The translations under genes and the position numbers were made by a program. The notes under the pieces are model-generated. The model saw nothing but the letters and a program-made list of their open reading frames with translations. It was not told the origin of the DNA and ran no database searches. A DNA stretch of 64,000 nt from Streptomyces sp. SID13031 (GTDB lineage Bacteria; Actinomycetota; Actinomycetes; Propionibacteriales; Kribbellaceae), in the NCBI RefSeq assembly GCF_010548305.1, contig NZ_JAAGLV010000002.1, positions 248,001 through 312,000 of the forward strand, in the 5' to 3' direction. Position 1 is the first letter of the stretch. Every line of letters starts with the position of its first letter. Shown piece by piece: positions 5,478-9,495 of this stretch.

Positions 5478-6398
5478 TCAGTCCTCCCTCCGGCCGAGGC
5501 CGAGAAAGCGCCCCTGGCCGAGGGCGACCAGCGCGATGAGCAGCGTCAGGATGACGGCGCCCGCGCTGCCGTGGCCGAAGTCCTGACCCTGACCGAGCGC
5601 CGCGTAGTACAGGTAGACCAGGGGTGGCCGGGCGTACGGCGGGTACTGACCGGAGCTGGAGAGCAGGTTGTAGAACTCGTCGAAGGCCTGGAACGCGTTG
5701 ATCAGAAGGAGCAGCAGTACTGCGGTCGAGGTGGCGCGCAGTTGCGGGAGGGTGATGAAGCGCAGCACCTTCCAGCCCTTCGCGCCGTCGATCGCGGCGG
5801 CCTCGTACAGCGACGGCGCGATCCGCTGCAGCCCGGCCAGGAACAGGATCATGTAGAAGCCGGCCTGCAACCACATGCGTGCGGTCACGATCACCAGCCA
5901 GTACCACGGTGGCTGCGTCACCGAGAGCCAGGCGATCGGCTCGATGCCGAACCAGTCGAGCACGGTGTTCATCAGGCCGAAGCGGACGCCGGAGAAGATC
6001 GAGAGCTTCCAGACCAGCGCTGCCACGACGTACGAGCAGGCGGTCGGCAGGAAGAAGACCGAGCGGAAGAAGGTCTTCGCGAACCGGGCCCGGTTGATCA
6101 GCAGCGCCAGGCCGAGCGACGCGACGAAGGTGGTCGGCACGATGAAGAGCGCGAAGACGACGAAGGTGAGCAGGCTGGAGCGGAAGGCCGAGTCCTTCAG
6201 CATGTCCACGTAGTTGCCCAGGCCAACGAAGTTCGTGGGCGTCACGGTGTTGTGGGCGTCGAAGAAGCTCAGCCAGATCGACCACAGGATCGGGACGTAG
6301 ACGAAGACGACCAGGCCGAGCACGAACGGGCCGACGAAGACGAGGAACCAGAGATTGCGGTCGTACCTTCCCCGCAGCCTCGTTGCTACGGTTGACAT
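5478..6398 (-). CDS. Carbohydrate ABC transporter permease, MalF type
   Basis: 306 residues from ATG at 6398, which shares one base with the stop of the binding-protein gene (TGATG), so translation is coupled. The ORF is open further upstream but that part overlaps the binding protein. About six helices; the first is LWFLVFVGPFVLGLVVFVYV. EAA loop: YEAAAIDGAKGWKVLRFITL. It forms the membrane channel with the following MalG-type subunit. Confidence 0.93.
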   Translation of the reverse strand: MSTVATRLRGRYDRNLWFLVFVGPFVLGLVVFVYVPILWSIWLSFFDAHNTVTPTNFVGLGNYVDMLKDSAFRSSLLTFVVFALFIVPTTFVASLGLALLINRARFAKTFFRSVFFLPTACSYVVAALVWKLSIFSGVRFGLMNTVLDWFGIEPIAWLSVTQPPWYWLVIVTARMWLQAGFYMILFLAGLQRIAPSLYEAAAIDGAKGWKVLRFITLPQLRATSTAVLLLLLINAFQAFDEFYNLLSSSGQYPPYARPPLVYLYYAALGQGQDFGHGSAGAVILTLLIALVALGQGRFLGLGRRED

Positions 6399-7684
6399 CA
6401 GCCCGCGACGCGCTTGAGTTCCGCCTCCACGATCGCCTTGACCGCCTTGATCTCGGTCGCCGGGTCGGTGCCGTTCTTGATGATCCGGTTGAGCGCGTCG
6501 GAGTACGCCGTCCCGGATTTGGGGGTCCAGAGCAACGGTGTCTGGGCGTGCCCGTTCTCGTTGACGAACCGCACCGCGTCGGCGGCCGGGCCGGACTTGA
6601 GCTTCTCCGCCTTCGCCGCCAGGCTCTTGCGGGCCGGGATGTGGAAGCCGTACGACTGGGCGAAGTCGAGCTGCTTGTCGGTCTGGTCCACCCACAGCCA
6701 CTTGACGAACTTCTTGGCGGCGTCGACGTTCTTCGACTTGGCGCTGACCGCGGAACCGTACGCGCCGACCGTGACGCTCGGCGCGCCGGTGGTGCTGTTC
6801 AGCTTCGGCCAGGGCAGGGCGCCGAAGTCGTCCGGGAACGCCTTCTGGATCAGCGGGAACGTCCACAGCCCGGTGAACTGCATCGCGGTCAGGCCCTGGG
6901 TGAAGGCCGACGGATCGGACCAGTCGGTCGGTGCCCCGAGCAACAAAGCCTTGCTGGTGAACAACTCGCGCAGCTTGCGCAGCGACTCGAACGCCGCCGG
7001 GTCATCGAAGCCGAAGGTGTTGTCCTCCTTGAGGTAGTCGAGCCCGGCCGACCACAGCGCCGGGCCGCCGAGGATGCCGACGCCGCCGTCGTTGCCGACG
7101 AACAGGCCCTTCACCTTGTCGGTGGTCAGCTTCTTGGCCGCGGCGATCAGCTCGTCGACCGTCGTCGGCGGCTGGATGCCGGCGGCCGACAGCAGGCTCT
7201 TGCGGTAGACGAGCACCTGCATGTCCGTCACCTGCGGGATCGCGTACAGCTTGCCCTGGTACGTGTTCCGGGCGATCAGCGCCGGAGTGAAGTCGGACTT
7301 GGCATCGCCGAGCAGGTCGGTCAGGTCGACCACCTGGCCGCCCTTGATCATGTCGATGCTCGGGCCGTTGCCGTACTCGAAGACGTCCGGCCCGCCGTCG
7401 GTGAGCAGCGCCGAGGCGGTCTTCTGGTCGTAGTCACCGGGCGACCACTGCACGGTCACGGTGGCGTCGGTGTACTCCTTGGCGTACTTCTCCACGGCCT
7501 GCTGCGTGCCCGCTTCGCCGTACTGGTGGTACCACTGCGACAGCGCCGGCTTACTGCCGGAAGAGCCCGAGCCGCCGTCCGACGCCCGGCCGGTGTTGGA
7601 GCCGCAGCCCGCGACCGCCATCGCGGCCACCCCGCCACCCACCGCGAGAAACTTCCGCCGACCGAATCCGCTGCCACCCGACAT
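6398..7684 (-). CDS. Sugar-binding lipoprotein of ABC importer (extracellular binding protein family 1)
   Basis: 428 residues from ATG at 7684 behind GCGGAGG; a further in-frame ATG at 7780 adds 32 residues unlike a signal peptide. The N-terminus carries twin arginines (R9, R10) and a lipobox ending at Cys27 (VAGC), so it is probably a lipid-anchored, possibly Tat-exported protein. The rest is a type 1 solute-binding fold. First gene of the operon binding protein-MalF-MalG-FAD oxidase. Substrate unknown, most likely a sugar or oligosaccharide. Confidence 0.92.
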   Translation of the reverse strand: MSGGSGFGRRKFLAVGGGVAAMAVAGCGSNTGRASDGGSGSSGSKPALSQWYHQYGEAGTQQAVEKYAKEYTDATVTVQWSPGDYDQKTASALLTDGGPDVFEYGNGPSIDMIKGGQVVDLTDLLGDAKSDFTPALIARNTYQGKLYAIPQVTDMQVLVYRKSLLSAAGIQPPTTVDELIAAAKKLTTDKVKGLFVGNDGGVGILGGPALWSAGLDYLKEDNTFGFDDPAAFESLRKLRELFTSKALLLGAPTDWSDPSAFTQGLTAMQFTGLWTFPLIQKAFPDDFGALPWPKLNSTTGAPSVTVGAYGSAVSAKSKNVDAAKKFVKWLWVDQTDKQLDFAQSYGFHIPARKSLAAKAEKLKSGPAADAVRFVNENGHAQTPLLWTPKSGTAYSDALNRIIKNGTDPATEIKAVKAIVEAELKRVAG

Positions 7685-7793
7685 CTGGACGTACCTCCGC
7701 GATTCCGGCGCGGTCCCACGAGCCGCGCACCGTCCCTCGACCCTACGACCGGTCGGGGTTGACGTCGTGCCTTTCCACACCGTGAAAAACCAA

Positions 7794-7822
7794 CTGCCGA
7801 AGTCGACTTTGTCGGGTAAGCT
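7794..7822 (+). promoter_or_regulatory. Possible promoter of the MFS leader
   Basis: CTGCCG, 17 bases, then TAAGCT. The expected transcription start is about seven bases further, at the GTG of the six-codon upstream ORF (7830), so that ORF would be leaderless. The match at -35 is weak. Confidence 0.35.
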
Positions 7823-7829
7823 CCGCGCC

Positions 7830-7915
7830 GTGTTCGATCCCCGTGCCTAGAGAGCGCTCGAATCCGAGCCAATTCACCGCACCCGCTCCGCTGACGGAGC
7901 CGGGCTCTCTAGGAG
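7830..7915 (+). promoter_or_regulatory. Structured leader with 6-codon uORF and ribosome-binding-site-covering stem
   Basis: GTG at 7830 starts the tiny ORF M-F-D-P-R-A, with stop TAG at 7848-7850. An outer perfect 10-bp stem joins CCTAGAGAGC (7846-7855) and GCTCTCTAGG (7904-7913). Two hairpins lie inside it: GCTCG-AATC-CGAGC (7856-7869) and GCTCCG-CTGA-CGGAGC (7885-7900). The 3' arm of the outer stem contains the first bases of the ribosome binding site AGGAG (7911-7915) of the MFS gene at 7925. The uORF stop lies in the 5' arm. This is the arrangement of translation attenuation, in which a ribosome stalled on the leader frees the binding site. Structure is seen; function is inferred. Confidence 0.55.
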
Positions 7916-7924
7916 CGTCCTCGC

Positions 7925-8789
7925 ATGCCTGGCACAACCCGTGCCGGGAGCTACCGTGACGTCCTGCTGCTGCCGCACGCGCTACGCACTTTCGTGCCCG
8001 CGTTGGTCGGCCGGCTGTCGTACGGTCTGCTCCCGCTGTCTGCCCTGTTCACCGTTCACCAATCAACCAACTCGTTCGCCACCGCCGGCGCGGCCGTCGC
8101 GGCATTCGGCCTGGCCTCACTCTCGATGCCACTGAAGGCTCGCCTCGTCGACCGCTTCAGCCAACGCCGAGTACTGCCGCCACTGGCCCTGCTCTGCGCA
8201 CTCGGCTTAGCGCTAACGGCCTCAGCCCGTACTACGAACGCCACGCTCCTGGTACTTCTCGTCGGAATCACCGGCCTCTTCGCCCCGCCGCTCGGCCCAC
8301 CTATGCGAGCTACCTGGCGACTCCTGACCGAAGGCTCAGACCTCAAGCAACGCGCGTACGCCCTCGACGCGATCTGCGAGGAGTCGCTGTACCTGGGTGG
8401 TCCGCTGATCGCGGGACTCCTGATCAGCTTCTGGTCCGCCCCCGTCGCGTTGAACTGCGCGGCCGTACTCATGGTCGGCGGCACCCTCGGCGGCATCGCT
8501 GGCAGGCAACCTGGTCGTGCTCGGAGTGGTGATGGCCGTCGGCGGCCTGGCGGTGGCCCCGCTCTTCGTCGTCACCTACCTCACGGCCGATGACCTGACC
8601 CCACCCCACCAGCGAACAGAGGCAAGTACCTGGATCAACACCATCAACAACCTGGGCAGCGCGGCGGGCTCCTCACTGGCAGGCCTGGCTGTAGACCGCA
8701 CGACCCCTACCTACGGCTTCCTGGTCAGCTCGGTTTTGCTTGCGGCAACCGCCGCTCTCACGTCGGTTCGCCGCGGGAGAGCGGGCTGA
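7925..8789 (+). pseudogene. MFS multidrug-type transporter, broken by internal deletion and frameshift
   Basis: The first 190 or so codons (7925 to about 8498) give a good N-terminal MFS half: six helices, then VALNCAAVLMVGGTLGGIAG. After this the frame turns to Arg-rich nonsense. The +1 frame continues as a normal C-terminal part (NLVVLGVVMAVGGLAVAPLF to the stop at 8789), with the family-like TEASTWINTINNLGSAAGSS. The two parts add up to about 285 residues against about 400 expected, so around 110 residues between helix 6 and helix 9 are missing. It is probably a dead efflux gene. A sequencing error alone cannot explain the missing stretch. It lies behind the structured leader. Confidence 0.8.
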
Positions 8790-8810
8790 CAGGTGCCGAT
8801 TTGATCACGA

Positions 8811-8845
8811 GGTATATCCGGGTATATATACGTCGACATATCCTC
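8811..8845 (+). promoter_or_regulatory. Putative vapBC operator/promoter
   Basis: An AT-rich island in high-GC DNA. GGTATAT occurs twice (8811-8817 and 8821-8827) and an inverted ATATCC copy follows near 8838-8843. Antitoxin-toxin complexes usually bind such repeats to repress their own operon. TATCCT at 8839-8844 lies seven bases before the ATG at 8852 and could be a -10 box for a leaderless transcript. Confidence 0.45.
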
Positions 8846-8851
8846 GTCTAC

Positions 8852-9061
8852 ATGAAGACGATGATCGATCTGGATGACGAGGCGCTGACACTCGCGGCGA
8901 AGGAGCTGGGGACCGTGACGAAGAAGGACACAGTGAACGCTGCATTGCAGTTCGTCGCCCGGCGGCGCGAACGCATCGAGGCGCTGCTCGACGACCCGTA
9001 TGCGTTGGGTGTCGGACCGGACATCACAGATGCCGAGATCATGCGAGGAGCCGATCGTTGA
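8852..9061 (+). CDS. vapB: VapB-type antitoxin
   Basis: 69 residues from ATG at 8852 (the frame is open to 8801 but those codons cross the operator). N-terminal ribbon-helix-helix DNA-binding part MKTMIDLDDEALTLAAKELG, as in the VapB/MazE-like antitoxins of actinobacteria with the ...KKDTVNAALQ helix. The acidic C-terminus should wrap the toxin. Stop and next start overlap as TTGA. No Shine-Dalgarno sequence is seen. Confidence 0.88.
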   Translation: MKTMIDLDDEALTLAAKELGTVTKKDTVNAALQFVARRRERIEALLDDPYALGVGPDITDAEIMRGADR

Positions 9062-9495
9062 GCACGGTGTCCGGTGTTGGCAAGCTCTATCTGGTCGACA
9101 CGTCAGCGCAGGCGCGCAGTGGCCATCCTGCGGTACGGACCGTGATCGCAGGTCTGATCGTCGATCGCGCGGCCGCCACGTGTGTGACGGTTGATCTCGA
9201 GGCCGGCTACTCGGGGCGTGACCTGGAGGACGTCCAGACCATTGCAGCGCGCCGGAAGTCGCTGTACACGGTTCTGCCCATGACCGAAGCCATCGCGGAA
9301 CGAGCCCGCGAGGTGCAGGTGCGGATGGCGGCGCGGGGGCATCACCGTGCCACCGGGGTGGCCGATCTGCTGACCGCCGCTGTCGCGGAACAGTACAACG
9401 CCGTGATCCTGCATTACGACGCAGACTTCGAGCACATCGCTGCGACTACAGGCCAACCTCATCTCTGGGTGGCGCCGCGCGGGACGCTGAACTGA
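9058..9495 (+). CDS. vapC: VapC-type toxin, PIN-domain ribonuclease
   Basis: 145 residues starting at TTG 9058, which overlaps the antitoxin stop by four bases. The PIN-domain acidic residues are all present: Asp14 (YLVDTSA), Glu48 (VDLEAGYS), an Asp in GVADLLTAA and the C-terminal Asp pair in LHYDADFEHIA. It should therefore be an active Mg-dependent RNase cutting tRNA or rRNA, held by VapB. A chromosomal type II toxin-antitoxin pair next to a decayed efflux gene. Confidence 0.92.
   Translation: MSTVSGVGKLYLVDTSAQARSGHPAVRTVIAGLIVDRAAATCVTVDLEAGYSGRDLEDVQTIAARRKSLYTVLPMTEAIAERAREVQVRMAARGHHRATGVADLLTAAVAEQYNAVILHYDADFEHIAATTGQPHLWVAPRGTLN

Follow-up and report, generated by a model that had tools for sequence, protein, structure and literature searches.

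Translation attenuators of the erm and cat type combine a short leader open reading frame with a stem over the ribosome-binding site of a resistance gene, which is released by a ribosome held on the leader. The chloramphenicol pumps cmx and cmr of actinobacteria are also translationally attenuated. The erm/cat attenuators have been reviewed by Lovett (as cited in PMC13410324). Described actinobacterial leaders with an upstream ORF (uORF) include the leaderless polycysteine attenuators of mycobacteria (Canestrari et al. 2020, as cited in PMC13236596), the very short uORFs (MLV, MVGDDDISG) of Streptomyces lmrC, tiaA and are5sc, which sense ribosome-bound antibiotics (PMC8546547, PMC12421871), and the attenuation of wblC/whiB7, which reads general translation stress (as cited in PMC7157823 and PMC13236596). 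In S. lividans, leuL, trpL and ilvL are leaderless leader peptides of 12–29 codons that are rich in the sensed amino acid (PMC8079986).

The leader analyzed here lies in a Kribbella sequence of 64,000 nucleotides from contig NZ_JAAGLV010000002.1 (the window) and is, in our judgment, probably a ribosome-mediated translation attenuator in which a leaderless six-codon uORF precedes an efflux-type MFS gene. Like erm/cat systems it has a short upstream ORF and a predicted stem over the binding site, which a ribosome on the leader would release, but its uORF is leaderless by prediction, is only six codons long, and has either its stop within the stem or codons that pair with the site. Like cmx and cmr, it would place an MFS pump behind an attenuating leader, although this pump matches no NCBIfam chloramphenicol-efflux family. 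With the mycobacterial attenuators, as they are summarized in PMC13236596, it has in common a short actinobacterial uORF, leaderless as judged from promoter spacing, upstream of a gene that it would control; unlike them it has no cysteine run, and the gene is an efflux-type pump rather than one of cysteine metabolism. The lmrC, tiaA and are5sc leaders likewise put an actinobacterial gene behind a very short uORF, but the genes are of the ABC-F type, the uORFs have their own ribosome-binding sites, and control is by a terminator/antiterminator switch. The wblC/whiB7 system, in the form cited above, is similar in having an actinobacterial uORF and differs in controlling a transcription factor via termination, not a pump via its binding site. 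The leaderless uORFs of leuL, trpL and ilvL also follow a TAnnnT box, whereas those described here have five to seven codons and, outside a Leu-rich Streptomyces form, no comparable run. Earlier work has separately described translation attenuation, actinobacterial leaderless uORFs, and short uORFs of Streptomyces that sense antibiotics. The searchable literature, which mostly leaves out subscription papers, gave no case in which these are combined on this pump clade, and an earlier description is possible; literature searches returned no mention of the uORF peptides. The arrangement is conserved and apparently undescribed.

Table 1. Features of the leader and the gene that follows it, in window positions.
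Feature	Position	Strand	Remarks
Candidate −10 promoter hexamer TAAGCT (TANNNT)	7817–7822	+	Identified by sequence; ends 7 nt before the uORF
Six-codon uORF, GTG TTC GAT CCC CGT GCC TAG (MFDPRA, then stop)	7830–7850	+	Predicted leaderless
5′ arm of the sequestering stem, CCTAGAGAGC	7846–7855	+	Contains the uORF stop codon (7848–7850); sequence and fold
Small hairpin GCTCG/CGAGC between the stem arms	7856–7869	+	Fold; kept as GCTC...GAGC across the genus
Small hairpin GCTCCG/CGGAGC between the stem arms	7885–7900	+	Fold; present in only part of the genus
3′ arm of the stem, GCTCTCTAGG	7904–7913	+	Last three bases are the AGG of the Shine-Dalgarno sequence
Shine-Dalgarno sequence AGGAG of the MFS gene	7911–7915	+	GGAG invariant in 18 Kribbella leaders
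MFS efflux-type gene, broken	7925–8789	+	ATG at 7925; PF07690 in both halves

The arms CCTAGAGAGC and GCTCTCTAGG pair perfectly over 10 bp, and the stem is contained in the minimum-energy fold of positions 7831–7940 (−43 kcal/mol, z −3.1), a stability reached by 1 of 200 shuffles. The pattern TANNNTN{5,8}RTGTTCNNNNNNCGTGCNTAG has a single match in this genome, the window uORF. An earlier note on this DNA had described a six-codon GTG uORF, a perfect 10-bp stem whose 5′ arm takes in the end of that uORF, and two small hairpins inside the stem, and all of these elements were recovered (Table 1). The overlap it claimed between stem and binding site stands in that the 3′ arm reaches AGGAG, with the refinement that AGG alone lies inside the stem. 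The interval it gave, 7794–8789, is too wide for the leader, which itself occupies about 7817–7927. The downstream gene is broken, as the note had stated: compared with its orthologues it carries a single 323-bp deletion (junction 8490/8491) that shifts the frame.

Among 38 Kribbella genomes, intact orthologues of the MFS gene were found in 17 besides the window strain (71–90% identity over the N-terminal part). All 18 leaders have a six-codon uORF with a TANNNT box 6–7 nt upstream, and in all 18 the Shine-Dalgarno sequence sits at the end of the complementary strand. The encoded peptides are MFDPRA, MSDPRA, MSSPRA, MFSPRD, MFSDRD, MFSSRD, MSSSCD, MFRSCD, MHSLRD, MSFLRD, MSRMPH and MQRFCD. A covariance model of the leader located the same 18 places in the 38 genomes with E about 1e-15 or better; the next best match, at E 0.01, was not convincing. 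A weak match that was inspected was rejected, as it corresponds to the promoter and start codon of a different gene that is apparently leaderless itself. The window uORF is the sole one of the 18 with a GTG start and the window pump the sole broken one, as if selection on the leader had relaxed in this strain.

Beyond the genus, 79 leaders of this MFS clade were collected from Kribbella, Streptomyces, Actinoplanes and others. Their uORFs have six codons in 67 cases, seven in 11 and five in one, and encode 43 distinct peptides that vary by lineage. The Actinoplanes/Paractinoplanes homologues all have MSQTPP (5/5), many Streptomyces leaders have M[FYL]LxLA or M-x-x-x-R-A, and another Streptomyces/Microtetraspora group has the seven-codon MFIVMFI and near variants; single relatives have VTCMKH, VTCSPP, MCKLPD and the five-codon VGTTD, each of these peptides being followed by a stop. 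In a sample of 121 Streptomyces genomes, searched with a single protein, the pump was present in 32, and the leader in 30 of 30 loci examined. Two strict leader patterns gave 5 matches in 395 genomes and 12 in 121; comparison with the coordinates of the MFS genes placed all 17 directly upstream of this MFS gene. No other gene with the same leader was found with the two patterns in these approximately 500 genomes, and the reversed patterns, used as controls, gave no match in the same set. A quick tree of 75 pumps brings the rows that carry the uORF together (5 changes versus 15.6 in shuffles), and one group of 66 rows (SH-aLRT 97) includes 58 uORF-bearing members; one leader, L082, was labeled as having none in this tree, and its five-codon uORF was recognized afterwards. 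More distant MFS genes are without the leader. By these sequence criteria, the leader is linked exclusively to this MFS clade. The earlier note had proposed that a ribosome stalled on the uORF opens the binding site of the MFS gene, with retention of the uORF in relatives as a check. Every one of the 17 relatives in the genus whose gene is intact keeps the uORF, as do most members of the wider clade, which supports that logic. The leader occurs across an entire clade of actinobacterial pumps.

Two side observations concern the seven-codon form. In L069 and L071–L079, mostly from Streptomyces, the MFIVMFI leader lies about 160 bases before the MFS start and is accompanied by a longer, strongly conserved structured region. 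L078, from a Microtetraspora fusca record, is near-identical to Streptomyces leaders, which suggests transfer or a mislabeled record.

The −10 box and the uORF are separated by 7 nt in 52 leaders and by 6 nt in the remaining 27. The uORF search within Kribbella set no condition on a −10 box, so that uORF and box agree independently in this genus, where the T, A and last T of the box are invariant. Outside Kribbella a box was required 4–9 nt from the uORF start, and the independent result is therefore the narrow spacing, not the presence of the box. In S. lividans, where the −10 element is TAnnnT, the distance to the transcript start is 5–7 nt in 89% of cases (mean 6.3 nt) and some leader peptides are leaderless (PMC8079986); a leaderless start of the uORF is thus to be expected from the spacing. 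The best reading is that the transcript would begin at, or within about a base of, the uORF start codon, and the position of the box in 79/79 leaders disfavors a transcript start downstream of 7855. When such leaders were dinucleotide-shuffled, a −10 box followed by a leaderless uORF of exactly six codons arose by chance at a rate of about 0.0009 per leader.

The uORF bears sequence marks of a translated frame. Synonymous third-position changes are seen in codons for Ala (GCA/GCG/GCC), Leu (CTC/CTT) and Ile (ATC/ATT), TTG and CTG are exchanged for Leu, ATG and GTG are exchanged at the first codon, and the stop is kept, which together indicate a frame under selection. The stop is TAG in 66/79 leaders. 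The usual stop in such GC-rich genomes is TGA, and the excess of TAG may come from constraints on pairing or be connected with release factor 1.

Accessibility was expressed as the energy needed to open the site, since the unpaired probabilities of the Shine-Dalgarno bases, when averaged, told nothing: the sequence, once freed, folds again. For Kribbella the computed cost is 11.6 kcal/mol in free RNA, 9.8 with an initiating ribosome and 6.7 with a ribosome at the uORF stop; the relief by a ribosome at the stop is 4.9 kcal/mol, versus 0.1 in shuffles. In a mixed group of Streptomyces and others the computed relief is 2.9 kcal/mol (0.3 in shuffles), and in the MFIVMFI group 1.3 kcal/mol. It is about zero in Actinoplanes, where the stem stops a few bases before the Shine-Dalgarno sequence, so that the case in that genus is one of conservation alone. 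The duplex between uORF and site comes to −20.4 versus −13.2 when shuffled, with 13/18 leaders at 5% or better. A structure overlapping the uORF, or the end of it, is thus predicted to sequester the binding site, clearly in Kribbella and more weakly in the Streptomyces group.

The partner of the binding site differs between lineages. In Kribbella it is the region of the uORF stop codon, and in Streptomyces it is codons 1–3, TGTTCCTC pairing with GAGGAAC. Other predicted pairings are GTTCTCCC with GGGAGAAC in L108, and GTGTTC and CCTC with GAGGGAACAC in L091. Across lineages this predicted pairing is kept while its letters and place shift. Within Kribbella, 79% of cells in the stem alignment are paired, versus 25–53% for slid controls. 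Three pairs are altered on both sides, a number reached by 143 of 500 shuffles; the clearest example is in L019, which has a TGA stop and a G-C pair in place of A-U. Covariation in the stem, which the earlier note had named as a check, is thin within the genus, where the core is nearly invariant; between genera, the pairing sequence is replaced and the layout kept. Taken as a whole, the layout is what persists between lineages in these alignments, while peptides and putative stems are replaced.

These features suggest how a translation attenuator might operate here. A ribosome would load directly on the 5′-terminal leaderless six-codon uORF. In the resting state, the binding site of the pump would be paired and kept closed, in Kribbella by the RNA around the uORF end and in Streptomyces and relatives by the codons of the uORF. 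A ribosome that lingers on the last part of the uORF or on its stop codon, the most likely cause being a ribosome-targeting compound that slows or traps it, would cover the pairing strand and free the binding site, as computed for a ribosome at the uORF stop, and the pump would be made when translation is disturbed. We infer the pause and its position, a drug as the signal, and the export of that drug by the pump. Ribosome footprints indicate that six codons are approximately the length covered back to the 5′ end by one ribosome at the stop.

The peptides do not point to any one drug. No known arrest motif is common to the 43 distinct peptides of the 79 leaders; each contains at most one Cys codon, and the residue before the stop is Ala, Asp, Ile, Pro, His or (once) Leu. 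We know of no slow context formed by Ala before a stop. Pro before the stop is such a context (PMC13410324). Stalling by chloramphenicol or linezolid favors Ala one codon earlier than the last (PMC13410324), and chloramphenicol-type stalling, with Ala, Ser or Thr in the E-site position, was set aside as a misfit to most of the peptides because their Ala is the last residue. Lincosamide-type drugs, which arrest ribosomes on the first uORF codon of Streptomyces tiaA and are5sc (PMC12421871), would suit the Streptomyces form and, less well, the Kribbella form. Amino-acid attenuation is thought unlikely, as there is no run of codons for one amino acid, except for Leu in Streptomyces. Tentatively, and with less than even confidence, we suggest that the leader could be a clade-wide sensor in which a 70S ribosome on the 5′-terminal uORF, blocked in late elongation or release at a (mostly) TAG stop after Ala, Asp or Pro, would bring about pump expression, with lineage peptides tuned to different compounds.

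A first alternative is translational coupling without a signal, in which traffic over the uORF constantly opens the site and the layout sets only a basal level of pump. For the mixed group that includes Streptomyces, an initiating ribosome is computed to free the site as well as one at the stop does (8.3 versus 8.5 kcal/mol), and traffic alone could suffice there. We nevertheless regard coupling as unlikely, since the fixed six-codon length and the lineage peptides (MSQTPP in five Actinoplanes, M-F-L-x-L-A in Streptomyces) exceed what it needs.

Transcription attenuation, with the uORF ribosome selecting between terminator and antiterminator as in lmrC and wblC, has precedents among the ARE ABC-F genes of Streptomyces (PMC8546547, PMC12421871). 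Some Streptomyces leaders of the present set have CCCCTTTT after the stem, and L081 (MCKLPD) has a GC-rich hairpin and then TTTTT just before the Shine-Dalgarno sequence (about 1440–1482; MFS start 1483), so that this one leader may work by transcription termination instead. As a general account it is improbable, because the stem is not followed by a T run in the window or elsewhere in Kribbella, and its 3′ arm enters the Shine-Dalgarno sequence. That the leader is a riboswitch, protein-binding site or thermosensor with an incidental short ORF would fit the inner GCTC/GAGC hairpin conserved in the genus, but is highly improbable given that an Rfam search gave no family and that ORF start, length and stop persist while stem sequences change completely between lineages.

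If the leader is indeed a translation attenuator, it would represent a widespread and probably drug-responsive switch before an uncharacterized pump family in soil actinobacteria, the chief producers of ribosome-targeting antibiotics. With its fixed length of six codons, the leaderless frame would be a minimal natural system for studying context-specific ribosome arrest, and comparing the lineage peptides could help to identify the natural compounds sensed and exported in each case. The pump matches MFS models in NCBIfam, chloramphenicol and tetracycline efflux families included, weakly and always below the curated cut-off, a PDB search gave no solved relative, and plasmid records with homologues name them "MFS transporter" and no more.

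The divergent neighbor of the leader in the window is a gene for an ABC-type solute-binding protein (minus-strand ORF 6398–7780, PF01547). On the 3′ side of the broken pump, positions 8801–9495 hold genes for a VapB-like antitoxin and a PIN-domain toxin (PF09957, PF01850). In two other Kribbella loci (L013 and L016), the end of what is apparently the same PIN gene lies directly before the −10 box of the leader.
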